Of a stretch of 45,988 nt of DNA, positions 24,578 to 37,465 are shown piece after piece. This stretch comes from Nitrospira sp. (lineage in GTDB: Bacteria > Nitrospirota > Nitrospiria > Nitrospirales > Nitrospiraceae), in NCBI GenBank assembly GCA_030692565.1, contig JAUYAO010000035.1, positions 1 to 45,988 of the forward strand, in the 5' to 3' direction. The notes below the pieces were generated by a model. It saw nothing but the letters and a program-made list of their open reading frames with translations, did not search any database and was not told where the DNA came from. Every line of letters begins with the position of its first letter. Within the stretch, counting starts at the first letter, position 1. The position numbers were made by a program, and so were the translations under genes.

Positions 24578-25009
24578 TTATCTCAGGATCTGTAGGCGTG
24601 TTTGCGAATGGTGCGGCTCTTCGACCGTAGCAAAGAGCGGGAGAAGATCGCTCATGGCGGCATCGGGGAGGTGCTTCCAGAGAAACCGGCGCAGGCGTGA
24701 ACGTTCGAGCGGACTCACGCGCGCAAAGCTCAGCCCGTACCGGGACCTGTCGATCCACACGACCTGCGCATCCGTAATCAGCACCGTCTGCGGAAGTTCG
24801 AGGACCAGGGCCAGTCTCTCTCCCACCGTGAGACGGCTGTTGCTTTCGAGACTGCATCCGACATCAGAGAGGTCGAGCAGGAGGGCCTTGCCGATCCGGC
24901 TGGTCTTATGGCGCTGCGCAAACTGCAGGCGTCTGGTTACAGTGATGCGATAGGTCTGTCGCTGGTCTGCTCGTGATGGCGGATTCTGTTGCGCGGTGGA
25001 TGAAGACAT
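24578..25009 (-). CDS. PilZ-domain protein (array member 1, most downstream)
   Basis: A 143-residue PilZ protein. c-di-GMP motifs are intact: R17-Q-T-Y-R21 and D46-L-S-D-V-G51. The domain continues with a LALVLELPQT strand and ITDAQVVWIDRSRYGLSF. The extra C-terminus (LLPLFATVEEPHHSQTRLQILR) is not part of the core. The ATG at 25009 has AGGAGT eight bases upstream and replaces a longer frame without a site. It is the last gene of a leftward array of five. Confidence 0.82.
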   Translation of the reverse strand: MSSSTAQQNPPSRADQRQTYRITVTRRLQFAQRHKTSRIGKALLLDLSDVGCSLESNSRLTVGERLALVLELPQTVLITDAQVVWIDRSRYGLSFARVSPLERSRLRRFLWKHLPDAAMSDLLPLFATVEEPHHSQTRLQILR

Positions 25010-25023
25010 CGTGGGTACTCCTG

Positions 25024-25419
25024 TTAAGCTTTTCCGCTTGTGCGAGTTGTGTGAAAGAATGACTGGAGAAACCGCTGAAGGCGGGGCTCTGATGTGGCCG
25101 GAATAGGTTGGGGTCTCAGACCAAACCGGTGCTCGTGGACCCACGCGACCTGAGCCTGAATGACGAAGAGCGGATCTTTCTTGTCCGGCAGAGAGAGAAA
25201 CAGGGTGAGATCCATGTCGACTGTGACCGGTTGGTTGCCCCGGACCCCCAATCCTCCCCGCGACATGTCGACAACCGTGCCATTGCCCATGATGACGTCG
25301 GTTTCGTTCGAGCCCGAATACATCAGGCCGAACGAGAGCGGGATGCGGTTGATCCCGCGTCGATCAGCCATGGGGCTATTGAAAAATCCTGGTGTCTTCG
25401 GGACAGGGTGCAGTGTCAT
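25024..25419 (-). CDS. PilZ-domain protein (array member 2)
   Basis: A 131-residue PilZ protein with intact R21-G-I-N-R25 and D51-M-S-R-G-G56 motifs. The central strands show LTLFLSLPDKKDPLFVIQAQ and VAWVHEHRFGLR. It shares the MYSGSNETDVIMGNGTVVD-type segment with members 3 and 4, so these look like recent duplicates. It is separated from member 1 by 14 bases. Confidence 0.82.
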   Translation of the reverse strand: MTLHPVPKTPGFFNSPMADRRGINRIPLSFGLMYSGSNETDVIMGNGTVVDMSRGGLGVRGNQPVTVDMDLTLFLSLPDKKDPLFVIQAQVAWVHEHRFGLRPQPIPATSEPRLQRFLQSFFHTTRTSGKA

Positions 25420-25455
25420 AACCGGATCCTTTCACGCCGTGACGGGCGTCGCGGT

Positions 25456-25827
25456 CTAGTGACAGTCAAGGAGGGCATCCATCCAATCCATCGTCCCGAT
25501 TTTCTGAGGTGGGAGCTGCATGCCGCAGCGTTGGCCATCCATCCAGAGTACCCGCACTTGCGGGATGCAGAGAGGGCGTTCAGCCTCGGGCAGTTCGAGA
25601 AAGAGCGCGAGTTCCATTCCCTGTTTGAGTCCCCGGGCGCCCGTGAGGCCGAAGCCGCGGCGGCTTAAGTCAACGATGGTCGCATGGCCCATCACAATCT
25701 TTTGGCCGTCCGCGCCCGAATATCGAACCTTGAAGGTCCCGCCGATCCGCGGATCCTGCCGGCGCTCGGCTCCGCCTCCGGCGGTGTGTGAGGGCGAGGT
25801 TGTCGAATCTGATTTCCACCAACTCAT
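25456..25827 (-). CDS. PilZ-domain protein (array member 3)
   Basis: A 123-residue PilZ protein with R23-Q-D-P-R27 and D53-L-S-R-R-G58 intact. The strands LALFLELPEAERPLCIPQ and VRVLWMDGQRCGMQL follow. It has a polar N-terminal tail (Ser/Thr/Gly-rich, 20 residues). Close in sequence to member 2 in the YSG...MGHATIVDLS stretch. The gene has a 36-base gap before member 2. Confidence 0.82.
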   Translation of the reverse strand: MSWWKSDSTTSPSHTAGGGAERRQDPRIGGTFKVRYSGADGQKIVMGHATIVDLSRRGFGLTGARGLKQGMELALFLELPEAERPLCIPQVRVLWMDGQRCGMQLPPQKIGTMDWMDALLDCH

Positions 25828-25875
25828 TGTGCGAGATCTCTCTTTCTGTTCCCGTGTCTGTGGCTTATGGCGTGA

Positions 25876-26262
25876 CTACACCGCATAGCAGAAGTCTGCC
25901 GGCGCCTCCCGGCGATTTTGCACCAGGGTTGCTAGTTGCTGCCGGGTTGCCTCAGGCACTTGCCGGAGATCCATCTCGAAGGAGTGCGATGTGGATGATG
26001 ACACCTGTCCGCCCACAAGGTAGAGATGATCATCCGAGTCAGGAATGGCGACCATCAGGGCGAGTTCCGTCCCGGGTTTTACCGGGCAATCACCATAGAT
26101 CTGCATCCTGTCGGCTGAGGCGGCGGTGATGGTTCCATCGCCAATGACAAACCGACTGTTATCCATTCCCGAATAGCAGGCTTGCAGGTTCTGACGGGCA
26201 TCCGTTTCGTGCCGAGCGATCATCGGGGAGCCCTGCTCTGCGTATGTCTTGGTGTGTTCCAT
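25876..26262 (-). CDS. PilZ-like protein with degenerate binding motifs (array member 4)
   Basis: A 128-residue PilZ-like protein. It is clearly related to members 2 and 3 (CYSGMDNSRFVIGDGTI), but lacks the canonical RxxxR at the usual place (RHETDAR instead) and has TAASADR in place of DxSxxG. It probably no longer binds c-di-GMP in the standard way. The ATG at 26262 has an AAGGA site eight bases upstream; a longer frame upstream is not supported. Confidence 0.7.
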   Translation of the reverse strand: MEHTKTYAEQGSPMIARHETDARQNLQACYSGMDNSRFVIGDGTITAASADRMQIYGDCPVKPGTELALMVAIPDSDDHLYLVGGQVSSSTSHSFEMDLRQVPEATRQQLATLVQNRREAPADFCYAV

Positions 26263-26593
26263 GGTCTGGTTCCTTCCCGGCCTCTCGCGGCCGTTTGCGT
26301 TGTCCTGATGGTGTAACCCTACCCCGAGGCAGGCCGTTTGACAGCCCCCTAGGCGGGGGGTGAGGGGACCCTCCTGAAGGGGGGCTATATCAGATAGCCG
26401 CGTCAGTATTGGTGCTGAACCCGCATCAGGTCTGTCGGTATTGTCGGAATGTGAAGATGCGGGAGAGATCATGACCGGCCGGAACTGGCCCCTGAGGACT
26501 CATTCGGGCAGGGCGCTGCCGGTTCCTGATAGGCAAAGGCCCCGGCGGTGATGTACCGTCGAGGCCTTGCGAAGGCGCTGTGGAGCAGGGAGT
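26263..26593. other. 331-bp gap between PilZ genes 4 and 5
   Basis: This gap holds the leader of member 4 and the end of member 5. It contains a CCCCCTAGGCGGGGG dyad near 26,344 and a terminator-like hairpin at 26,536-26,568. Two open frames exist in it but read as low-complexity, so no gene is called. Confidence 0.5.
26536..26568 (-). terminator. Terminator-like hairpin after PilZ array member 5
   Basis: On the minus strand AAGGCC pairs with GGCCTT, and inside it CGACGGT pairs with ACCGCCG (one mismatch) around a five-base loop. The stem is followed by a short TTT only. It lies about 25 bases downstream of the stop at 26,594, which suggests member 5 is partly insulated from members 1-4. Confidence 0.45.
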
Positions 26594-27016
26594 TTAGACT
26601 AGCCGGAATCGGGGCCGCTGATCGTGAACGGTCGCATGCGAGATGTTTTTCCAGATACAGGCTTGCAGCCGTTTCCGCTGGTCTTGCGAGAGCTGCATGA
26701 ATCGAACGGAAAGCTGGCATCCCGACACCCAGACAACATGCGCTGAAGTGAGGCACAACGGGCCCTCTCCATCGGGAAGATCAATAGTAAGACTGAGGAG
26801 GGTTCCCCGAGTGACCGGGCGATCGCTGATGATCTTGCATCCCGATACGGAGATATCTTTGGTCAGCCCCTGTCCGGCATGAGGCTGACTAGGGATGTCG
26901 CCCTTGTATCGGACTTTACAGCTGATAGCGAGTCGTTCGGTATAGCGTTTGTCGAGGCTGGAATAGGCCGGCCGCATCGGCTTCGGGGGCTCGGGGAAGG
27001 ACTTTCTCATGCTCAT
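26594..27016 (-). CDS. PilZ-domain protein (array member 5, most upstream)
   Basis: A 140-residue PilZ protein. R24-Y-T-E-R28 and D54-I-S-V-S-G59 are intact. The strands LLSLTIDLPDGEGPLCL and AHVVWVSGCQLSVRF follow. It has a proline-rich N-terminal tail of about 20 residues. ATG 27016 is preceded by GAGGG. It is set apart from member 4 by a 331-base gap and a hairpin. The 294 bases upstream, between this gene and the paralogous secreted proteins, hold its leader and no recognised gene. Confidence 0.82.
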   Translation of the reverse strand: MSMRKSFPEPPKPMRPAYSSLDKRYTERLAISCKVRYKGDIPSQPHAGQGLTKDISVSGCKIISDRPVTRGTLLSLTIDLPDGEGPLCLTSAHVVWVSGCQLSVRFMQLSQDQRKRLQACIWKNISHATVHDQRPRFRLV

Positions 27017-27311: not shown

Positions 27312-27827
27312 TTAGAAGACCGTTCCTGAATTTCCTTCCGAGAGTTTTTCGCGCAGAATGCGGCTCTCGAAAAAGATGATCCCTCGTTCGATTCGTGACT
27401 CGTACCGGAGCGTAATTTCCGTGTCGAAGCCATGCCAGGCATAGACGCGGATCGGGCCCACCGAGATCTGTCCCGGCGTGCGATCGAGCGGACCATATTG
27501 GGTTTGCAGATAGGTCAGGATCTGTTCGTGCGTATCTTTGCCCTGGTAGCGGACCAGCACGCGGCCGAACTTCCCGTCAAAAGTTGTGTAGCGCAAGACC
27601 TCGACCGGAATCGTTCCGAGCGTCGGCTTTCCGGTTTTCAGCTCATACGACAGCAAGCGCCCTGCTTCTTCGACTTTGGCGAACTGGTCGCCTTCCGTCA
27701 GCGCCGATTCCCAGGGCAGCCCTTCAAACCCGTTTGGATCGTTGAGAATCGGGACGGCCAGCGCCAGAGCCGACTGGAATAGAAGCCCGAGGGTCAGGGT
27801 GGTCAGGCCTAAGGGGAAGCGGATCAT
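27312..27827 (-). CDS. Secreted hypothetical protein, paralogue 1
   Basis: A 171-residue protein with a cleavable-looking signal peptide (hydrophobic GLTTLTLGLLFQSALALA, then AVPILN). The mature part begins NDPNGFEGLPWESAL and continues with FGRVLVRYQGKDTHEQILTY, YGPLDRTPGQ and a C-terminal ERGIIFFESRIL. It is a paralogue of the next gene with the same order of blocks. No known domain. It is 16 bases downstream of its paralogue and so likely in one operon. Confidence 0.65.
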   Translation of the reverse strand: MIRFPLGLTTLTLGLLFQSALALAVPILNDPNGFEGLPWESALTEGDQFAKVEEAGRLLSYELKTGKPTLGTIPVEVLRYTTFDGKFGRVLVRYQGKDTHEQILTYLQTQYGPLDRTPGQISVGPIRVYAWHGFDTEITLRYESRIERGIIFFESRILREKLSEGNSGTVF

Positions 27828-27843: not shown

Positions 27844-28368
27844 TTACTCAGCGGAGTCCGTAATATGGTCGTTGAATCGCGGCGCCAGTGTGCGGCTGTC
27901 GATGAAGATGAACCCGCGTTCGGTGTTGGCTTGATAGGTCACATTGATCTCGGTTTCCGGCCCACGCCAATTATATTGCTGATTCAGTCCCCGCGCCATC
28001 TGCCCGGGGATACGTTCCAACGGCCCGAATTGCGTTTCGAGGAATCGCATGACCTGGGCATGGATCTGCTCGCCCTGGTAGCGAATGGTGACGCGGGCGA
28101 ACTGATCATCAACCGACAGGAGGAGAATGCTGGTCATTTCAGCCCCGGCGAAGGTGGCGGGGCCGGTCGTGGAACGATATTCGGTGATATGGGGGCCGGT
28201 CCGTGACGGGACTACATCTGTGCGTCCCTTCAGCACGCTCCCCCAGGCAAGATTCTGAAACCCTTTCGGATCGTTGATCATCGGGACGGCAGACACCGGC
28301 AACGTGTGCAGCACGCTGGAAACACAGACAAGCCCGAGGAGAAGACGCCGGAGCAAATGGTTACTCAT
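27844..28368 (-). CDS. Secreted hypothetical protein, paralogue 2
   Basis: A 174-residue protein with an N-terminal signal (LLRRLLLGLVCVSSVLHTLP, then VSAVPMIN). The mature part starts NDPKGFQNLAWGSVL and later has FARVTIRYQGEQIHAQVMRF, FGPLERIPGQ and ERGFIFIDSRTL, matching blocks of the paralogue at 27,312. Start ATG 28368 is used since it directly precedes the signal peptide; an upstream in-frame start at 28434 adds only basic residues. Role unknown; probably periplasmic or secreted. Confidence 0.65.
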   Translation of the reverse strand: MSNHLLRRLLLGLVCVSSVLHTLPVSAVPMINDPKGFQNLAWGSVLKGRTDVVPSRTGPHITEYRSTTGPATFAGAEMTSILLLSVDDQFARVTIRYQGEQIHAQVMRFLETQFGPLERIPGQMARGLNQQYNWRGPETEINVTYQANTERGFIFIDSRTLAPRFNDHITDSAE

Positions 28369-28447
28369 GGTGTCGCGAACGATCCGAAACACGAGCCATT
28401 CTCGCACGCTACCATGGCGTCGGGGTCGGCGCAACCGGGATGTTTTG

Positions 28448-28477
28448 TTGAGAATGCGCGCAGCCCTGTCTTATAAT
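28448..28477 (+). promoter_or_regulatory. Sigma70-like promoter of the phosphonate locus
   Basis: TTGAGA (28448-28453) and TATAAT (28472-28477, consensus) are 18 bases apart. Transcription would start near 28484, about 66 bases before the first gene. It also faces away from the secreted paralogues, as a divergent promoter. Confidence 0.6.
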
Positions 28478-28549
28478 GCGCCGGCTTTTAGAACGGGACT
28501 GTGCCCAGCGGGCTCAGCACAACGGCATCGACAAAGGATCGGGAGCGAG

Positions 28550-29047
28550 ATGATTGAAAGTGATGCATTTGTTCAGGCCTTGCAGGATATAGGAGTCGAC
28601 TTCTTTACCGGAGTCCCTGACTCGATCCTGGGCGGCATTATTGCGGAACTGATGGTGCGGCGGCTCTATACGCCGGCGGTGCGCGAAGACGAAGCGGTAG
28701 GAATGGCGGCCGGCGCCTATATGGCGGGGAAGATCCCTGCTGTGTTGATGCAGAATTCCGGGCTCGGCACCTCTCTCAATACGCTCATCTCGTTGAACAT
28801 GATTTACCGGCAGCCCTGCATTCTGATCGTGTCCTGGCGCGGCCAAGGGGGCAAGGATGCTCCGGAGCATCTGGTGATGGGCGAGGTGATGCCGCAGTTT
28901 CTCGACACCATGAAGATTCCGCACCGGACGCTGACCGAGAAAACCGCCGTCGAAGATTTCAAGTGGGTGGCCGAGACCTTTATGAAGCAACGCATTCCCG
29001 TTGCGCTGGTGATTACCAAGGGTGTCGTGAAAGGGTTGCATCCATGA
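28550..29047 (+). CDS. Phosphonopyruvate decarboxylase, N-terminal (alpha) subunit
   Basis: A 165-residue protein equal to the pyrimidine-binding half of thiamine-diphosphate decarboxylases. Phosphonopyruvate decarboxylase turns phosphonopyruvate into phosphonoacetaldehyde. FFTGVPDSILGGII and the TPP-activating glutamate in VREDEAVGMAAGAYMAGK (about residue 48) are visible, followed by QNSGLGTSLNTL. The second half is a separate gene, which is why the length is about half the usual. The related ComD subunit of sulfopyruvate decarboxylase has the same organisation; the neighbouring phnW and cytidylyltransferase make phosphonopyruvate the likely substrate. It has a GGGAG site. Confidence 0.8.
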   Translation: MIESDAFVQALQDIGVDFFTGVPDSILGGIIAELMVRRLYTPAVREDEAVGMAAGAYMAGKIPAVLMQNSGLGTSLNTLISLNMIYRQPCILIVSWRGQGGKDAPEHLVMGEVMPQFLDTMKIPHRTLTEKTAVEDFKWVAETFMKQRIPVALVITKGVVKGLHP

Positions 29048-29622
29048 GACCTGAAGAAGGAACCCTGATCAGCCGGGCGCAGGCGTTGGCCGCGCTTCTC
29101 GAATTGCTGACCGACCAGCCCGTGATCATCTGCAACGGCTTCCCGTCACGCGAAGCGCACAAGATCGCCGACCGTCCGACTCATTTCTATATGATCGGGT
29201 CGATGGGAAATGCCCCGGCGATCGCACTGGGTGTGGCGTTGGCCAAGCCGAACAAACAAGTCATCACTTTCGACGGCGACGGCAACGTGCTGATGGGGAT
29301 GGGGACCCTCGCCACGGTCGGCGCGTTGAAGCCGAAGAATTTCATTCATGTGGTGTTCGACAACGAAGTGTATGGCACCACCGGCAACCAGCCGACGATT
29401 TCGAACGTGGTGCCGCTGGAGAAGGTGGCCAAAGCGGCCGGCTATATGAATGTGGAGCGCGTGCTCGACCGCGAAGATCTCGTCTATGAATTCAAAGATA
29501 TGCTGAAGAAGGACGGGCCGAGCATGTTGCTGATCAAGGTCAATGAGTTTGCCGAAGATGCCGGACGGGTGCTCCATGAGCCGCCGGACATCACGAAGCG
29601 GTTTATGAAAGCCATTGAGTAA
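29044..29622 (+). CDS. Phosphonopyruvate decarboxylase, C-terminal (beta) subunit
   Basis: A 192-residue protein equal to the pyrophosphate-binding half of the decarboxylase. The TPP-Mg motif is intact: GDG (78-80) through N107 (FDGDGNVLMGMG ... FDNEVYGTTGNQPT). ATG 29044 overlaps the stop of the alpha gene by four bases (ATGA), so the two subunits are co-translated. It is homologous to ComE of coenzyme M synthesis; the local pathway argues for phosphonates. The final about 20 residues (RVLHEPPDITKRFMKAIE) form a tail seen in this group. Confidence 0.8.
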   Translation: MRPEEGTLISRAQALAALLELLTDQPVIICNGFPSREAHKIADRPTHFYMIGSMGNAPAIALGVALAKPNKQVITFDGDGNVLMGMGTLATVGALKPKNFIHVVFDNEVYGTTGNQPTISNVVPLEKVAKAAGYMNVERVLDREDLVYEFKDMLKKDGPSMLLIKVNEFAEDAGRVLHEPPDITKRFMKAIE

Positions 29623-29710
29623 GTAGGTAATGAGTGACAGGTGATAGGGTCAGACATTTCCGGACGTGCGTGTTACGCCTCCCGCGTCGCGCAGTACAAG
29701 GCTTCACACA

Positions 29711-30793
29711 ATGATTCTCCTCAATCCAGGTCCGGTCAATGTGTCCGAGCGGGTGCGGCAGGCGTTGTTGCGGCCGGATATCTGCCATCGTGAATCCGAG
29801 TTCACCGAGTTGCTGCTCCGGATTCAAGGCAAACTGCTGAAGGCTTTTGTGCCCGGCGCGGAATCCGAGTATGCCGCCGTGCTCATCACCGGCTCAGGCA
29901 CCGCGGCGGTCGAGTCCGCGCTGATGTCCGCCATCCCCCACGGCAAGCGGGTGCTGGTGCTGAATAACGGTGTGTACGGCGAGCGCTTGTCTCAGATGGT
30001 CGGCTTGCACCGGTTGGGTGTGTCTGAGCTTAAGTACGATTGGACCGCCAGGCCGGATCCTGAGCGTCTCCGGCTGGCCCTTCGGCAGCATCCTGAAGTC
30101 CATGCGGTGGCGATGGTCCATCATGAAACCACCACCGGTCTGATCAATCCGGTGAAAGAGATTGCCGACGTGGTCGACAGTCAGAACCGCGCCTTCATCC
30201 TCGATGCCGTCAGCGGGCTGGGCGGAGAAACCATCGATATCGCCGGGTCGCACATTTATATGGTGGCTGGCACGGCCGGCAAATGCATTCAGGGCTTTCC
30301 CGGCGTGTCGTTCGTCCTGGTACGCAAGGGGTTTCTTGAGCGGATGCGCCAGTATCCGAAACGGTCGTGGTATCTCCACCTCACACATTATGTCGACGAT
30401 CAAGGCCGCGGCACGATTCCCTTCACGCCGGCGGTGCAGGTGTATTATGGTTTTGACGAAGCGCTGAGCGAGTTGCTGGAAGAGGGCGTGGCGAACCGGA
30501 TTCTGCGCTACAAGAAGGCGTCGACTCTGATCCGCGCGCGCATGGCGAAGCTGGGGGTCAAGCCGATGCTGACGCCTGAGCGCCAGTCGAACACCATTAC
30601 CGCTTACTCGCTCCCCGACGGCGTGACCTATGACCAGTTGCACGATCGCCTCAAGGCGCAGGGCTATGTCATCTATGCGGGGCAGGGACAATTGGAACAC
30701 AAGATTTTCCGTGTGGCCAACATGGGCGCACTGACCGAGGCGCAGTTGACCGGATTTCTCGACGCCTTCGAACAGGCCTGTAAACCGGCATGA
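29711..30793 (+). CDS. phnW: 2-aminoethylphosphonate:pyruvate transaminase (PhnW-like)
   Basis: A 360-residue class V aminotransferase. PhnW-type enzymes interconvert phosphonoacetaldehyde and 2-aminoethylphosphonate with an amino acid and its keto acid; here it is expected to run toward the amine because the decarboxylase supplies the aldehyde. PLP lysine K191 sits in AGTAGKCIQGFPGVSF, the aspartate D165 in LDAVSGLGG, and SGTAAVESAL begins the PLP phosphate loop. The start is ATG 29711; an upstream start would add only an unrelated peptide. Its stop overlaps the cytidylyltransferase start by four bases. Confidence 0.82.
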   Translation: MILLNPGPVNVSERVRQALLRPDICHRESEFTELLLRIQGKLLKAFVPGAESEYAAVLITGSGTAAVESALMSAIPHGKRVLVLNNGVYGERLSQMVGLHRLGVSELKYDWTARPDPERLRLALRQHPEVHAVAMVHHETTTGLINPVKEIADVVDSQNRAFILDAVSGLGGETIDIAGSHIYMVAGTAGKCIQGFPGVSFVLVRKGFLERMRQYPKRSWYLHLTHYVDDQGRGTIPFTPAVQVYYGFDEALSELLEEGVANRILRYKKASTLIRARMAKLGVKPMLTPERQSNTITAYSLPDGVTYDQLHDRLKAQGYVIYAGQGQLEHKIFRVANMGALTEAQLTGFLDAFEQACKPA

Positions 30794-31509
30794 AGGCGAT
30801 CATTCTGGCCGCAGGAGTCGGCAAGCGGCTGTGGCCCGTCACGCAGCATCACCCGAAGTGCCTCATCAAGATCGGCGAGCAGACTCTGCTGCACCGGTAT
30901 CTGACGCTCTTGTCGAGTGTGGGGGTTCGTCAAGCCGACATTGTCGTCGGCTACAAGCAGGAAATGATCCGCGCCGCCGTCGAATCCGATGCCTGCGGCG
31001 TCCGGGTCAATTTTTTGGTGAACGAGCAGTTCCATCGGGGCAGCATCTCGTCTTTGTGGATCGCCAGGACTGCGTTCACCGACGACACGATTGTTATGGA
31101 TGCGGATGTGCTCTTTCATCGGGAAATTTTACAGCGGCTGGTGAGTTCGCTTTACGAGAATGCGTTGCTGATGGATGAATCGGTGAAACAGACCGGCGAA
31201 GAATGTATGGTCGTGGTCGAAGGCGGGCGGGTGATCGCGCTGACGAAAACCATGCCGCCGCGGTATGAGTATGCCGGTGAAGGCGTGGGGTTTCTCAAGG
31301 TGCGGCATGCCGATTCGCCGCATCTCGTCGCGTCGCTCCGGAGATTTGTCGATCGGGAAGCCTGGCAGATGGAGTATGAAGACGCGCTGATCGGCTTTTT
31401 CCGCGACGTGAAGGTTGGCCATGAAAAGATCGGCGGCCTGCCGTGGACCGAGATCGATTTCCCCGACGATGTGACGAAAGCCGAGCGCGAGATCCTGCCG
31501 AGGCTGTGA
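30790..31509 (+). CDS. pntC: Nucleotidyltransferase, probable 2-aminoethylphosphonate cytidylyltransferase (PntC-like)
   Basis: A 239-residue NTP transferase of the sugar-1-phosphate and choline-phosphate type. LAAGVGKRLWP (6-16) is the nucleotide-binding loop, K23 is in HHPKCLIKIG, and the metal aspartates are in MDADV (103-107). Its place directly after phnW, sharing four bases, points to CTP:2-aminoethylphosphonate cytidylyltransferase, giving CMP-AEP for transfer. A phosphocholine cytidylyltransferase role cannot be ruled out by sequence alone. The stop is followed by a 98-base gap containing TGAC dyads. Confidence 0.68.
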   Translation: MKAIILAAGVGKRLWPVTQHHPKCLIKIGEQTLLHRYLTLLSSVGVRQADIVVGYKQEMIRAAVESDACGVRVNFLVNEQFHRGSISSLWIARTAFTDDTIVMDADVLFHREILQRLVSSLYENALLMDESVKQTGEECMVVVEGGRVIALTKTMPPRYEYAGEGVGFLKVRHADSPHLVASLRRFVDREAWQMEYEDALIGFFRDVKVGHEKIGGLPWTEIDFPDDVTKAEREILPRL

Positions 31510-31607
31510 CGGACAGACGTCATTCGTCATGCGTCAATCGCAGTGAAGTTCAGAATGGCGTGTGTATCGGTTGACGAGTGACGATTGACCGTTGACGGGG
31601 TTCAGAT

Positions 31608-33032
31608 ATGAGTGAAAGTCTCATCCAGCATCGCGCGGAAGTTCAGGGACTGGCGACCGCCATTCTCTTGCCTTCCGTCAGTGTCTTCGGCGAATCCCCT
31701 GATCGTGTACCGGGCAGTGCCGGCCCTCTGACGCAGGTTGTGGGGATTGGGCTGTTTCAGCGCGCTGTGCTCACGCTGCAACGGGCCGGCATTCGGCAAT
31801 TGATCGTGCTCGCCGGTCCGGAAGAAGACCAGCTCAAGCAGGCGTTAGGCCGGGGGCCGCGCGTGACGATTCCTGTGCGGTGGATGCCGATCAGGGAGTT
31901 TCCGCTCGACGATCCGCGCACCTGGGAGGCGATGGCGGCGGAAGTCACCGGGTTCTGTCTCGTCGCGAGCGCGCGAGGGATGTTCTCGCGGGCCTTGATC
32001 GAAAGTCTGCGCCGCGAGGTGCAGGAGGGACAGGCGATTCTGGTCGCGCACCCGGTTGCGCAGCGGGCAGCGGGAGATCGACGGGTTTCGGTCAAAGTGC
32101 AGGCCGAGCGGCTTCTCGCCCTCGGATCGTCCCGGGCCGAAGATGCGCCGCTGGTTGCGGCGGATTTGCTGGTCCTGCCGGCCAGCCTGATGGCCGCGGC
32201 GCAGGATACCCAAACACCTCCCGGCGCCCTGCCGATCAGGCGATGGCTTGAACGGGCGGCGATTGATGGACGGGTGAGGGTTCTGCGAACGGACGGGCAT
32301 CCCTCCCAGTGGTACCAGGATGTGCGGACGCAGGCCGAGGTCCCGGCGGCTGAACGGAAGCTGTTCTCCTCGCTCAAGGGCGAGTTCGAGGGATTCGTCG
32401 ATCGCTACTTCAATCGCAAGGTATCCCGCTGGTTCACTCGGTTCTTTCTGGCGGTGGGAGCCTCGCCTAATGCCATTACCATGGTGGCCACAATCGTGGG
32501 GATCCTGGCTGCCGTGGGATTCGGAATCGGGACCTATCAGGCGGCCGTCGTGGCGGCGTTGCTGTTTCAATTTGCGGCGGTGATCGATTGTTGCGATGGT
32601 GAAGTGGCCCGTCTCACGTTTACTGAGTCTGCGTTCGGCGCCTGGCTTGATATCGCGATGGACAACGTCGTGCATATGGCCATCTTCGCCGGGATTGCCG
32701 TGGGGGCGTACCAACAGACTGCCGGGCAGGCCGAGGCCTGGATTCCGCTCGCGTTGGGTGCGGCTGCCGTGCTCGGGAACGCCTCGTCCTTTGTGTTGGT
32801 GACTCGGGCCCAGAAGATCAAAGCGGCGAGCGGGTGGAAGGCGCCGGTCCATGCGGCCTGGTCCGAGTTCATGCTGAAGAATGTCGCCAGCCGTGATTTT
32901 TCGGTGATCGTCCTGATCGCGGCATTGTTGGGCAAGCTGGATTGGTTTCTCTGGATGGCCTCAGCCGGTTCCCTGGTGTTCACTGCGCTGATGCTGTGGG
33001 TGATTCGTCCGTCAGCAAGATCTCGTGCGTAG
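31608..33032 (+). CDS. CDP-alcohol phosphotransferase fused to a degenerate nucleotidyltransferase domain
   Basis: A 474-residue fusion. Residues about 15-250 resemble the cytidylyltransferase half of bifunctional IPCT-DIPPS-type proteins but lack the LAAGxGxR loop (ILLPSVSVFGESPDRVPG instead), so this half is probably inactive. Residues about 255-470 are a CDP-alcohol phosphotransferase with the complete motif D327-x2-D330-G331-x2-A334-R335-x8-G344-x3-D348-x3-D352 and several membrane helices. This family displaces CMP from a CDP- or CMP-activated headgroup by a lipid or polyol alcohol. Given the upstream genes, the donor may be CMP-AEP. The acceptor is unknown. The C-terminus (RPSARSRA) abuts a palindromic element. 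Confidence 0.72.
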   Translation: MSESLIQHRAEVQGLATAILLPSVSVFGESPDRVPGSAGPLTQVVGIGLFQRAVLTLQRAGIRQLIVLAGPEEDQLKQALGRGPRVTIPVRWMPIREFPLDDPRTWEAMAAEVTGFCLVASARGMFSRALIESLRREVQEGQAILVAHPVAQRAAGDRRVSVKVQAERLLALGSSRAEDAPLVAADLLVLPASLMAAAQDTQTPPGALPIRRWLERAAIDGRVRVLRTDGHPSQWYQDVRTQAEVPAAERKLFSSLKGEFEGFVDRYFNRKVSRWFTRFFLAVGASPNAITMVATIVGILAAVGFGIGTYQAAVVAALLFQFAAVIDCCDGEVARLTFTESAFGAWLDIAMDNVVHMAIFAGIAVGAYQQTAGQAEAWIPLALGAAAVLGNASSFVLVTRAQKIKAASGWKAPVHAAWSEFMLKNVASRDFSVIVLIAALLGKLDWFLWMASAGSLVFTALMLWVIRPSARSRA

Positions 33033-33293: not shown

Positions 33294-34313
33294 GTGCTGA
33301 GAGTCATCCTCCTGCTCGTCGGGTTCCTCACGCTCAGTCTCATCGTCTGGCACATCGGTCCCGGGAATATCTATGACGCCGCGACCAGGCTCGGGCCGGT
33401 GGCGTTGTGCGTGATCCTCATTCCCTCCCTCGTCATGTATGCCGTCGATGCCTATGGGTGGAAGGTCACGCTTGGTCAGGCCGGCCGGCCGGTCTCGTTT
33501 CTGCGGGTTTTTGCCGTTCGCACGGCCGGTGAAGTGGTGAACATGACGACGCCGACAGCCTATGTCGGCGGCGAGCCGCTCAAAGCGTACTTGCTGCAGA
33601 AGTCCGGCGTGCCGATAGTGGAAGGGTTGGCCTCCGTCGTCATTGCCAAGACGACCATGACCATCGCTCAGGTGTTGTTCATTCTCTTAGGAATTGCGTT
33701 GGGCTTCTGGATATTGGGCGCGCAGGGTTCGTCGGGGCAAATCGTGGCGGCAGGGTTGCTGAGCATCGGGCTGTTGGCCTTCGGAACCATGGCGTTTGTG
33801 TTCGTGCAACGGCGCGGCCTCTTTACCTGGATCCTGGAGACGCTGCGGAAGTTCGGTGTGCGGATCGGCTTTCTTGAAGCACGGGAAGACAAGCTGCGGG
33901 CGCTTGATCAGACGATTCTGAATTTCTATACCCGGCACCAGGCGGCGTTCTATGCGTCCACTGGTTTGTACTTCCTGGGGTGGTTGGCTGAGGCGCTGGA
34001 AGTGTTCGTCATCATCTACTTCCTCGGAGGCCCCGCCGATGTATGGTCGGCAATCTCGATCGGAGCCCTCTCCGGTTTCATCAAAGGCGGGACGTTCTTC
34101 ATTCCCGGCAGCCTGGGTGCGCAGGATGGCGGCAATCTGCTGTTGCTCCAAGCCTTCGGCTATTCCGATGTCACAGGGATTACCTTTGCACTGCTGCGAC
34201 GATTCCGCGAGTTGGTGTGGATCGGGATCGGGCTGCTGTGTCTCTCGCTGATGGGCAAGCAAGCAGGCGTTGCTCAGAAAGGTTCTTCCAAGGAAGCTTC
34301 GCGAGGGAATTGA
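33294..34313 (+). CDS. Flippase-like membrane protein (LPG_synthase_TM / UPF0104)
   Basis: A 339-residue inner-membrane protein with about eight hydrophobic segments and the family pattern of the LPG synthase membrane domain: TAGEVVNMTTPTAYVGGEP near residue 80, SVVIAKTTMTIAQ and a C-terminal FIKGGTFFIPGSLGAQDGG. Members act as, or resemble, flippases for lipids or lipid-linked sugars. It starts at GTG 33294 with AGGAC upstream, just beyond the palindromic element. In this locus it may flip the phosphonate or sugar lipid; that is inference. Confidence 0.78.
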   Translation: MLRVILLLVGFLTLSLIVWHIGPGNIYDAATRLGPVALCVILIPSLVMYAVDAYGWKVTLGQAGRPVSFLRVFAVRTAGEVVNMTTPTAYVGGEPLKAYLLQKSGVPIVEGLASVVIAKTTMTIAQVLFILLGIALGFWILGAQGSSGQIVAAGLLSIGLLAFGTMAFVFVQRRGLFTWILETLRKFGVRIGFLEAREDKLRALDQTILNFYTRHQAAFYASTGLYFLGWLAEALEVFVIIYFLGGPADVWSAISIGALSGFIKGGTFFIPGSLGAQDGGNLLLLQAFGYSDVTGITFALLRRFRELVWIGIGLLCLSLMGKQAGVAQKGSSKEASRGN

Positions 34314-34550: not shown

Positions 34551-35627
34551 ATGAATGCCAGAGTATCAGCTTCGCCTTTAACCGTTGCGGTCATCGTGCC
34601 TGTCTACAACGGGGGCGAGCGATTTCATGCGAGCTTGAAATCGATCAGGCAGACGGTGCCTCCGCCGGATGAACTCATCGTAATCGGCGATGGGGATACC
34701 GACGGGTCCTCGCAGTACGCAGAGGCGGCCGGCGTGACCCTGTATCGCTTTCCCCAACCGGGAGGGCCCGGTCGCGCCAGGAATCTCGGCGCATCGAAGG
34801 CAACCTCGGATCTGCTCTTCTTCATCGATGCAGACGTAACCGTGCCTGAGAAGGCGATTGAGCAGGTAAGGGACATCTTTGCTCGGCATCCTGAGATAGC
34901 TGCCATGATCGGGTCCTATGACGATCAACCGGGGGAAGCGAATTTTCTTTCACAGTACAGGAATCTCCTGCACCATTACGTCCATCAGAATGGCCGGGAG
35001 GAGGCCTCAACGTTTTGGGGCGCCTGCGGGGCGATCCGGCGGGAGGTCTTTCTCGCGATGGGCGGATTCGATGAAACGTATCGCAAGCCCTCCATCGAAG
35101 ATATTGAATTGGGCTACCGCCTCACACGAGCCGGTCACAGGATTCGGCTCTGTAAATCCATTCAGGTCAAACATTGGAAACGCTGGACGATCGGGTCGAT
35201 GCTCCAGGCTGACTTTTTTCAGCGGGCCGTGCCATGGACACAGCTGATTCACCGGCATCAAGGCTTTGTGAACGATTTGAATATCGGCATCTCCGGGCGC
35301 GTGAGCGTGATGTTGGCAGCTGGACTTCTCGGCGCACTCATGCTGTCTCCCTGGCAGCCGCTTTTCTTGGTCGGGGCTGCCATGATGGGGGTGATGCTCT
35401 TTTCCCTCAATGCCCGGCTCTACCGGTTTTTCCTGGAGAAGCGAGGGCTCCGATTCGCTGCGCAAACCGTCCCGTGGCACTGGTTGTATTTTCTGTATAG
35501 CGGAGTCGCCTTCGCCGTCGGGACGGTGTGTTATTTCGCAAAGGGTGAAGGGGAGCTTAGGGGGCCTGCTTCCCTGGTCACGCAAGACGCACGACGCGCA
35601 AGATCACGAGTGGAGAAACGCGAATGA
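34551..35627 (+). CDS. Glycosyltransferase family 2, membrane-anchored
   Basis: A 358-residue GT2 enzyme. The nucleotide-sugar pocket shows [14 protein letters not shown] (residues 12-25), the metal DxD is D93-A-D95 in [11 protein letters not shown], and [12 protein letters not shown] plus [10 protein letters not shown] give the acceptor/catalytic region. Two or three membrane helices lie at about 265-330. Expected to add a sugar at the cytoplasmic face. The start at ATG 34551 has AGGA close ahead. Its stop overlaps the flavoprotein start (ATGA), so they form an operon. Confidence 0.82.
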
Positions 35628-37465
35628 GCCAAGAGTCTTCTATTATCATCGGGGCAGGGCCGGCAGGGCTCACGGCCGCCTACGAGTTGGGCAAGCGGGG
35701 CATGACGTCTACCGTGCTCGAGGCGAGCGATCAGGTCGGGGGAATCTCGAAAACCGTCAACTATCGCGGGTATCGGTTTGATATCGGCGGACATCGATTC
35801 TTCTCCAAAGTCCCCCTTATCAATGAACTGTGGCACGAAATTCTCGGAGAGGAGTTCTTGCTGCGTCCGCGCATCTCCCGCATCTATTACAATCAACACT
35901 TCTTTGACTACCCTCTCAAACCGCTGAATGCGCTGGCCGGTCTCGGCCCGTTGGAATCGTTTCTGATCGGCCTCAGCTACATCAAGGCCAAGTTCTTCCA
36001 CATCCAGGATGAGAAAACATTCGAGCAGTGGGTGTCCAACCGATTCGGGTATCGGCTGTACAGCATTTTCTTCAAGACCTACACAGAGAAGGTCTGGGGA
36101 ATTCCGTGCCACGAGATCTCAGCGGACTGGGCGGCGCAACGCATCAAGAACCTCTCTCTGAAACAAGCCGTGCGGAATGCGCTGTTCGGAGCCAAACAGG
36201 GCATGGACGGGTCGACATTGACCTCTCTGATCGAGCAATTTCACTATCCCCGCTTTGGTCCGGGGTTGATGTGGGAACGGTGCCGCGGTTTGATCGAAAG
36301 TCAGGGCTCTCAGACGATCCAAGGCGTGAAAGTGGAACGTGTCAGGCATCGTCACGGTGTGGTTGACTGTGTTCAGGGGCAAGGCGCGGCCGGTGAGTCG
36401 CTGGAGTATGATGGTCGGCACTTCGTGTCGACCATGCCGCTACGGGAACTGGTGCAGGCCCTGGATCCTTTGCCGCCGGAGGATGTGCTCAAAGCCGCAC
36501 AAGCTCTCCGTTACCGGGATTACCTGACGGTAGTACTGGTCATCGATCGCGAGTCCGTCTTCCCCGACAATTGGCTCTACGTGCATTCGCCGGAGGTCAA
36601 GCTCGGGCGGATTCAGAATTACAAAAACTGGAGTCCCTATATGGTACCGGACGCCTCACGGACCTCACTGGGATTGGAATATTTCTTGTGGGATACGGAT
36701 GATATGTGGACGTGGTCGGATGAGCGCCTCATTGAACTGGGCATTCGCGAATGCGCGCAAATCGGCCTCATCGATCCGCGGGAAGTCAAAGACGGGACGG
36801 TCGTGCGGATGGAGAAGGCCTATCCGGTCTACGACCAGACGTATCAAGACAGTGTCGCCACGATCCGTCGCTATCTGGAGACCTTCTCGAATCTGCAGAC
36901 CATCGGGCGAAACGGATTGCATCGCTATAACAATCAAGACCACTCCATGCTGACCGGTGTGTATGCGGCCGGGAACATTCTCGGTGGCAAGCGCGATGTC
37001 TGGGCAGTCAACACAGAAAAGGAATATCACGAAGAAGAACGAGCGACTCAGCCAAATGCCGGAGATCGGCTGGTGCCGACGCGAGTCTCCGTCTCGGTCG
37101 ATGAGGCGGTAGGGGAAGCTGAAGACGTCGTGATCGAAGTCGCGTTTGCGAACATAGATCCGCTCGCCTTGGGGATAGCCGTCGGCGTGGTGAGCAGTTT
37201 CGGGATATTCATGGCCTCGGCCGTCTTGTTACTGAGAGGCGGGGCTGCGCCTGGTCCAAACTTGTCGTTGCTCGGGAACTACCTGTTCGGGTTTGAAGTC
37301 ACGTGGGCAGGCGCGGTGATCGGGTTAGTCGAAGCAGGGCTGTTGGGGTTTGTAGTGGGGGCACTTGCGGCCGGACTCAGAAATTGGACGCTTACGGGCT
37401 ACGCAAAATTCGTTCGGTGGCGCGCAGAGCGGGATGACCGGCGCCATCTTCTCGACAAGATGTAA
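35624..37465 (+). CDS. UDP-galactopyranose-mutase-like FAD protein with C-terminal membrane module
   Basis: A 613-residue flavoprotein. The FAD-binding start is [20 protein letters not shown] (about 8-27) with a downstream [19 protein letters not shown] typical of this COG1232-like group, and ends in a [11 protein letters not shown] block. The family includes UDP-galactopyranose mutases and related amine-oxidase-fold enzymes. Residues about 511-590 are an added two-helix segment ([18 protein letters not shown], later [20 protein letters not shown]) that recurs in the next gene. It is therefore probably membrane-tethered. Substrate undecided. Confidence 0.7.

Follow-up and report, generated by a model that had tools for sequence, protein, structure and literature searches.

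The closest described counterpart of the locus reported here is the Pnt pathway of Treponema denticola, Atopobium rimae and Olsenella uli, for which the passages of PMC6697681 on these organisms describe a phosphoenolpyruvate (PEP) mutase (Ppm) fused to a MobA-like nucleoside triphosphate (NTP)-transferase domain, a phosphonopyruvate decarboxylase (Ppd), a 2-aminoethylphosphonate (AEP) transaminase (AEPT) and a LicC-like AEP cytidylyltransferase. We analyzed a 45,988-nucleotide stretch of a Nitrospira sp. genome (contig JAUYAO010000035.1 of assembly GCA_030692565.1; hereafter, the window), in which a conserved cluster of six genes, together with a likewise fused Ppm, would account for the same four functions. 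In contrast to the Pnt pathway, the Ppd of the window is split over two genes (PpdA and PpdB), Ppm is encoded at another place in the genome, and the Ppm-type enzyme of some relatives lacks the hallmark EDKxxxxxNS. The cluster also encodes a cytidine diphosphate (CDP)-alcohol phosphotransferase and an HpnL-like flippase, candidates for the missing late steps of phosphonate tailoring, namely transfer to an acceptor and flipping. We interpret the system as a probable new version of the phosphonyl-tailoring pathway, and one that makes a testable claim, namely a new hopanoid head group.

We know of no AEP step in hopanoid (hpn) gene clusters, with which the locus has an HpnL-like flippase in common and in which Binatota-type genomes place AEP genes, between hpnN and hpnK. 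PMC12583986, whose main text contains no word starting with "phosphon", describes the role of hpnL as not established. In acidophilic Acetobacteraceae, terpenoid genes near a mutase gene were taken to suggest an "undiscovered terpene-phosphonate" (PMC8776678). As in the window system, Ppm, decarboxylase and aminotransferase genes lie near terpenoid genes in those clusters, but they belong to another phylum, the section that describes them names no acceptor enzyme, flippase or hopanoid, and the likeness is one of description only. This suggestion is the nearest printed idea that we found, and it points to a third lineage. Among the matches listed by full-text literature searches, which mostly cover journals outside subscription, there was no paper on an AEP-hopanoid and none on phosphonate synthesis in Nitrospira.

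We propose that Ppm would convert PEP to phosphonopyruvate, that PpdA/PpdB would decarboxylate this product, that AEPT would aminate the resulting aldehyde to AEP, and that the stand-alone PntC-type cytidylyltransferase (NTase) would make AEP linked to cytidine monophosphate (CMP-AEP). The membrane CDP-alcohol phosphotransferase, with its N-terminal domain as a degenerate remnant, would then move AEP from CMP to a lipid hydroxyl, and the HpnL-like protein would carry the product over the inner membrane. A hopanoid polyol (bacteriohopanepolyol) would be the most likely acceptor. We infer every one of these reactions, as well as the lipid nature and the identity of the acceptor, from observed genes, motifs, gene order, co-occurrence with Ppm and the hopanoid-gene neighborhoods of a second group of genomes. 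As a prediction, the pathway is well supported as far as CMP-AEP; the phosphotransferase is then likely to transfer AEP to a membrane acceptor, and the HpnL-like protein may plausibly flip the product. We regard it as quite probable that AEP is joined by this route to a membrane lipid or another surface acceptor. That this acceptor is a hopanoid has, in our estimate, a little less than an even chance, and we are equally tentative about the full pathway ending on a hopanoid polyol. A first-pass annotation, made from the DNA sequence alone, had already surmised that AEP is attached to a lipid or polyol, and this idea gained support from the Ppm in the genome, from the co-occurrence of Ppm and phosphotransferase (92/95 vs 0/18 genomes), from the PntC-like NTase and from the adjoining flippase-type gene.

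All five reading frames that the first-pass annotation had placed between positions 28448 and 33032 were found there (Table 1), as were its ATGA overlaps, which join PpdA to PpdB and AEPT to NTase by 4 bp each. Its description of the genes as tightly spaced holds for these two junctions but not for the remaining gaps, which are 88 and 98 bp. Its family assignments stand insofar as each of the five proteins exceeds a Pfam cut-off in profile searches (35.7 bits for TPP_enzyme_N on PpdA), but the first four fall below the curated NCBIfam cut-offs. The sixth gene, for the flippase, which begins after a gap of 261 bp, the degenerate N-terminal domain of the phosphotransferase and the lack of a PEP mutase in the cluster had not been reported, and neither had Ppm itself or the hopanoid link. 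As for the promoter with a consensus -10 box, TTGAGA-18-TATAAT was recovered as described, although promoter-like sites in the region are at chance level overall (2 found, 1.7 expected by shuffles). Because both hexamers are unchanged in 7/7 aligned upstream regions, those of the window and six relatives that we picked, across a mean column identity of 62%, we take this site to be a real promoter.

The Ppm of the window's genome (4.17 Mb) is encoded on contig C6. Its 544 aa include a nucleotidyltransferase domain at the C-terminus; it exceeds its cut-off of 319.55 bits at 384.4, carries the hallmark as EDKLFPKTNS and has the Mytilus PEP mutase (1m1b) as its nearest PDB entry. We followed its co-occurrence with the cluster in 295 Nitrospirota genomes using the phosphotransferase as marker, counting strong matches and setting aside weak ones in other classes. 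Strong matches were found in 95 genomes of the window's class, comprising 75/79 genomes of the window's family, 18/18 of a second family, one of a third family (G282, partial) and one outside the order (G157). A Ppm homolog of at least 268 bits was present in 92 of these 95 genomes and in 0/18 other genomes of the class, the best match of G139 having 140 bits. Fisher's exact test gave p = 4e-18, a value that is uncorrected for shared ancestry and so overstates the evidence. A strong NTase match (at least 209 bits) was likewise present in 94/95 marker genomes, all except G282, and the sole marker-negative genome of the class listed with an NTase match, G240, reached 83 bits.

Canonical Ppm, scoring over the cut-off, accounted for 68/92 Ppm-bearing marker genomes, and EDKxxxxxNS was present in 10/10 canonical Ppm loci fetched. 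These included the locus of G174, a genome outside the class in which canonical Ppm, a single-chain Ppd and a phosphotransferase-like gene stand in a row. We rejected canonical Ppm as a neighbor of the cluster in relatives, since 0/68 lay within 200 kb of the phosphotransferase on a shared contig, as judged by eye from coordinates in mostly draft assemblies; only a variant Ppm adjoins it. This variant, of 268-293 bits, was found in the remaining 24/92 genomes, where it replaces the canonical kind, no genome having both. It lies on the opposite strand of the same contig within ~8 kb of the phosphotransferase in 21/24 genomes and was the divergent neighbor of PpdA in the 10 of those 21 that were read out. 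Of 13 variant genomes fetched, 11 have EDN-x2-PKRCS where the canonical enzyme has EDKxxxxxNS, in a protein fused to a nucleotidyltransferase domain; EDKxxxxxNS was not found in the variant Ppm of the other two (G137 and G270). The best solved match of the variant was the PEP mutase 5unc (286 bits), ahead of phosphonopyruvate hydrolase 2dua (237 bits) and the Mytilus PEP mutase (213.5 bits). As the genes downstream are orthologous with either kind of Ppm, it is simplest to read the variant, too, as a PEP mutase, which would form phosphonopyruvate. Ppm sequences were filtered by EDKxxxxxNS in PMC6697681, and those removed, according to its account of the filtering, included 22 fused ones; variants of the type described here would land among such sequences, suggesting that genome mining by this motif may miss working PEP mutases.

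NTase matched Tde-PntC (48 bits) above LicC (45.7 bits, residues 1-123) and inositol-1-phosphate cytidylyltransferase (27.6 bits) among solved structures, its alignment covering residues 4-237 of Tde-PntC with an E value of 1.2e-11. The motifs GxGxR..PK, MDxD, [MI]EYE and WxEID were present in 13/13 aligned homologs. Tde-PntC contacts the amine of AEP through Glu104 and Glu196, and LicC has Asp at both positions (PMC6697681, in its comparison of the two enzymes). Glu196 corresponds to E197 in NTase, which is invariant in 13/13 homologs; in 5/5 Binatota-type homologs printed, the [MI]EYE motif reads IEHE, with this Glu retained. The domain fused to Ppm was rejected as AEP cytidylyltransferase: GxGxR..PK and MEYE were absent in 20/20 fused proteins examined (15 Nitrospirota and 5 Binatota-type, with G105, which has a longer N-terminus, read from the alignment). 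For this reason, the stand-alone NTase appears the likelier AEP cytidylyltransferase of the two.

The CDP-alcohol phosphotransferase carries the motif D-x2-DG-x2-AR-x8-G-x3-D-x3-D from residue 327, kept in 23/23 aligned homologs, and an N-terminal domain with the nucleotidyltransferase signature in 0/23, though a nucleotidyltransferase fold is predicted. A structure model of the enzyme (mean predicted local distance difference test score 80.3, predicted template modeling score 0.58) matched IPCT-DIPPS 4mnd (Z 24.1, root-mean-square deviation 4.9, 395 residues aligned) and AF2299 4q7c (Z 24.2, root-mean-square deviation 4.6, 327 aligned). For the N-terminal domain, many nucleotidyltransferases matched with Z scores no more than 1-2 units apart, and we therefore do not assign it to a subfamily by fold. 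IPCT-DIPPS of Archaeoglobus fulgidus (4mnd) and AF2299 (4o6m) have domain order, fold and CDP-alcohol phosphotransferase motif in common with the window enzyme, which differs from both in the lost N-terminal signature and in having a separate PntC-type enzyme at its side. The enzyme thus follows the IPCT-DIPPS build, its first domain being degenerate and the cytidylyl step presumably left to the product of the neighboring gene. By analogy, we infer that a small head group would come from a CMP-linked donor.

We read the cluster neighborhood in 26 relatives of the Nitrospirota sample and found the order PpdA-PpdB-AEPT-NTase-phosphotransferase-flippase kept across genera. Of 490 loci from a wider scan of 84,980 species genomes, we kept the best 80, which consisted of 71 Nitrospirota loci, Candidatus Nitrospira defluvii (L153) among them, and 9 others. 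Where at least 5.2 kb of upstream sequence was available, 53/55 Nitrospirota loci had all four upstream genes (exceptions L087 and L140), and where there was at least 1.2 kb downstream, 65/66 had the flippase (exception L155); altogether, an HpnL-like gene followed the phosphotransferase on the same strand in 69/71 Nitrospirota loci, some of which end early. Among 22 loci aligned, the closest named one by phosphotransferase was that of Nitrospira sp. WB-IL-20, at 92% identity. NTase adjoins Ppm in G133, and the phosphotransferase-flippase pair is separate from the other four genes in G081; from these arrangements it follows that pieces of the gene set travel as units. A second, single-chain Ppd was found beside Ppm in G276 (485 bits), G055 and G125. 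If the proposed pathway operates, almost every sampled member of the Nitrospira family would be predicted to make carbon-phosphorus (C-P) lipids, and phosphonates in soil and water may thus have a source that has been overlooked. At G200:C1:1225357-1227546, we also noted a second NTase copy with internal stop codons, beside pieces of a second phosphotransferase and ~15 kb from the intact genes.

The first indications of a hopanoid link come from the flippase (P0006), which scores closer to the HpnL model TIGR03476, though short of its cut-off of 195.65, than to a general flippase model (74.8 bits) and is the sole TIGR03476 match at E 1e-5 in the window's genome. HpnL-like matches were obtained in this genome (G000) and in G055, G204 and G302, but not in G060 and G143, the two tested of four genomes that have shc and hpnH without the cluster. 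The window's genome encodes squalene-hopene cyclase (Shc, 776.6 bits) and HpnH (546.3 bits), and both were over cut-off in 95/95 marker-bearing genomes of the class and in G174. Elsewhere in the phylum, Shc and HpnH were found without the cluster.

Stronger support than this co-occurrence comes from the hpn neighborhoods of the second group, nine non-Nitrospirota genomes of which six are titled Candidatus Binatia/Binatota and the rest Desulfurellaceae, Deltaproteobacteria and Klebsiella (probably a mislabel). In 9/9, the row PpdA-PpdB-AEPT lies directly behind HpnN, with AEPT at 357-379 bits (over the cut-off in 5), and in 8/9 a PntC-type NTase directly follows AEPT. HpnK is on the same locus in 8/9 (adjoining NTase in 7, ~6 kb away in G299), and 5/6 long stretches read contain HpnI and HpnJ, the exception being L196, on a contig of 11 kb. 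The locus L193, for example, reads HpnM, HpnN, PpdA, PpdB, AEPT, NTase and HpnK, followed by HpnI and HpnJ on the opposite strand, with 17 bp between HpnN and PpdA and the one HpnL-like gene of the genome ~9 kb past HpnJ; here HpnK, HpnI and HpnJ score over their cut-offs, and HpnN (602 of 751.85) and HpnM (48 of 160.1) below. In L080, it is the phosphotransferase that adjoins HpnI (313.1 bits, cut-off 310) and HpnJ (736.1 bits, cut-off 577.6), and an HpnL-like gene lies further along. Six of the nine second-group genomes have a variant Ppm (broken in G298) with the same fusion as in Nitrospira, and a protein with squalene-hopene-cyclase domains stands behind the variant Ppm in 6/6 Binatota-type loci. 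In 3/71 Nitrospirota loci, a squalene-hopene-cyclase-repeat protein is encoded between NTase and the phosphotransferase, and in a fourth it lies upstream of the phosphotransferase at the contig end; the two of these four proteins that were scanned matched SQHop_cyclase_C (Pfam) at 44.6 and 32.3 bits, over the cut-off of 26.1. The locus titled Klebsiella pneumoniae (L095, CAMBFS010000076.1, a metagenome bin) has phosphonate and hpn genes that resemble those of the Binatota-titled genomes.

We hold with some reserve, at somewhat under an even chance, the broader proposal that Nitrospira and the second group, which is mostly Binatota, both put AEP on hopanoids, giving a "phosphonohopanoid" that a dedicated CDP-alcohol phosphotransferase would make and an HpnL-type flippase would export, with a Ppm subgroup (EDN-x2-PKRCS in the 11 read) forming the C-P bond in 24/92 genomes. 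Such a product would suggest a new hopanoid head group, potentially a biomarker, as well as a role for HpnL.

Several observations weigh against the pathway and its hopanoid acceptor. At the level of the enzymes, PpdA reaches 133 bits with the phosphonopyruvate decarboxylase model TIGR03297, whose cut-off is 312.5 bits, PpdB stays below the same cut-off at 174.9 bits, AEPT misses that of TIGR03301 (348 against 360.8 bits), and NTase has Asp104 where Tde-PntC has its second AEP-contacting residue, Glu104. At the level of genomes, a Ppm match is missing in 3/95 marker genomes (G214, G234 and G282), variant-class Ppm was not found in three of the nine second-group genomes (G297, G299 and G300), and in 9/9 of that group the phosphotransferase locus fetched is without Ppd or AEPT. 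Four family members without the cluster also have Shc and HpnH, the other 14 genomes of the class do not, and so the co-occurrence of the two with the cluster fits a hopanoid link yet tracks phylogeny and is confounded by descent. In the Nitrospirota loci read, HpnM, HpnN, HpnK, HpnI, HpnJ and Shc queries gave only weak matches near the cluster or Ppm (HpnJ-like, 56 bits, in L044; HpnN-like, 97 bits, and HpnM-like, 54 bits, in L034). Finally, the nine Binatota-type genomes are related, so that their hpn arrangement counts as one or few events.

Some of these points bear on an alternative in which AEP would be transferred to diacylglycerol or a diglyceride-like lipid in a Kennedy-type reaction, giving a phosphono-analog of phosphatidylethanolamine, the hopanoid links reflecting only shared outer-membrane lipid traffic. 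The CDP-alcohol phosphotransferase signature, the adjoining LPG_synthase_TM-type flippase and the position of the cluster outside hpn clusters in the Nitrospirota loci read all fit such a glycerolipid. Set against it are the placement of PpdA-PpdB-AEPT-PntC between hpnN and hpnK in the second group, HpnI and HpnJ beside the phosphotransferase in L080, and the presence of both shc and hpnH in every phosphotransferase-bearing genome of the class, and we consider it unlikely. Compared with a glycerolipid, a hopanoid polyol would better account for the hpn neighborhoods, for the likeness of the flippase to HpnL and for shc and hpnH always being present, though shared lipid traffic would cover part of this.

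Transfer of AEP to a glycan or polyprenyl-linked sugar, with the phosphotransferase acting on a sugar or polyol hydroxyl to give a phosphonoglycan, we judge improbable. There is precedent in the AEP-bearing capsule of Bacteroides fragilis, mentioned in PMC6697681, and the phosphotransferase resembles IPCT-DIPPS, an enzyme that joins two polyols; glycosyltransferases and a PMT-type protein are also encoded among the downstream genes of the window. In the stretches fetched, however, those downstream genes show no conservation alongside the cluster, and the gene that does follow, in nearly all Nitrospirota loci as counted above, is that of the HpnL-like flippase.

Profile scores alone leave the substrate unsettled, because the first four proteins are below NCBIfam cut-offs and PpdB scores slightly higher as sulfopyruvate decarboxylase beta (TIGR03846, 186.6 bits against a cut-off of 221.5) than as phosphonopyruvate decarboxylase; our specific assignment of the pathway draws on catalytic motifs, solved-structure matches and context. 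Catalytic features are retained as GDG...DN in PpdB, K191 in AEPT and the full CDP-alcohol phosphotransferase motif in the last enzyme, and PpdA and PpdB apart, there was no TIGR03297 match above 27.7 bits in the window's genome. We see very little room for an inositol-phosphate route (of the CDP-inositol, di-myo-inositol phosphate or phosphatidylinositol type), in which NTase would be an inositol-1-phosphate cytidylyltransferase and the thiamine pyrophosphate (TPP) enzyme and transaminase would be unrelated or make taurine from sulfopyruvate. NCBIfam does rank IPCT-DIPPS high for both NTase, which has weak sugar and inositol models only, and the phosphotransferase, and the PpdB scores lean the same way; yet NTase matches Tde-PntC best among solved structures, the best solved matches of AEPT (profile family PhnW-AepZ, top PDB entry 1m32) are AEP transaminases, and Ppm co-occurs, adjoining the cluster in some genomes. 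Catabolism of AEP by the PhnW route is more improbable still: AEPT belongs to the PhnW family and transaminations are reversible, but PEP mutase, decarboxylase and cytidylyltransferase serve synthesis, and there was no phosphonatase among the cluster proteins scanned, a search that did not extend to the genome as a whole.

Table 1. Coordinates of the features described in the text; positions without a locus handle are those of the window.
Feature	Position	Strand	Basis
Sigma-70-type promoter TTGAGA-18-TATAAT	28448-28477	+	11/12 consensus positions; hexamers unchanged in 7/7 aligned upstream regions
PpdA, N-terminal half (alpha) of split phosphonopyruvate-decarboxylase-type TPP enzyme	28550-29047	+	TIGR03297 positions 1-156; TPP_enzyme_N
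PpdB, C-terminal half (beta), GDG...DN thiamine motif at residue 78	29044-29622	+	TIGR03297 positions 169-358; TIGR03846
AEPT, PhnW-type 2-aminoethylphosphonate transaminase, pyridoxal phosphate lysine K191	29711-30793	+	TIGR03301 full length; PDB 1m32
NTase, PntC-type cytidylyltransferase, stand-alone, signature intact	30790-31509	+	best PDB match 6pd1 (Tde-PntC), residues 2-238
CDP-alcohol phosphotransferase with degenerate N-terminal nucleotidyltransferase domain	31608-33032	+	PF01066 44.7 bits (over cut-off); motif; predicted fold
HpnL-like flippase (LPG_synthase_TM family), sixth conserved gene	33294-34313	+	PF03706 107.1 bits; TIGR03476 158.8 bits
Variant Ppm, example from G204	L054:11918-13597		
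Squalene-hopene-cyclase-domain protein (~310-325 aa)	L093:8652-9623, L154:1987-2958, L155:7611-8543, L166:11299-12276		inside or beside phosphonate genes

On the other side of the promoter, two minus-strand frames (27312-27827 and 27844-28434; 171 and 196 aa) run divergently from the cluster; they look paralogous by eye and have no Pfam match. Just upstream of the cluster, there is also a minus-strand row of five short frames (24578-27016), four of which match PilZ over the cut-off (25-52 bits); the fifth, at 25876-26472, has no Pfam match. Downstream of the cluster, the glycosyltransferase genes were rejected as members of the system: of the 27 relative loci that hold cluster genes, G110 alone has two of the genes searched for (GT2a and FADox), and G055 has one weak match. 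Positions 35624-37465 of the window encode a PRK07208-type FAD enzyme (700.8 bits), the C-terminal part of which is weakly holin-like (28.4 of 70 bits).

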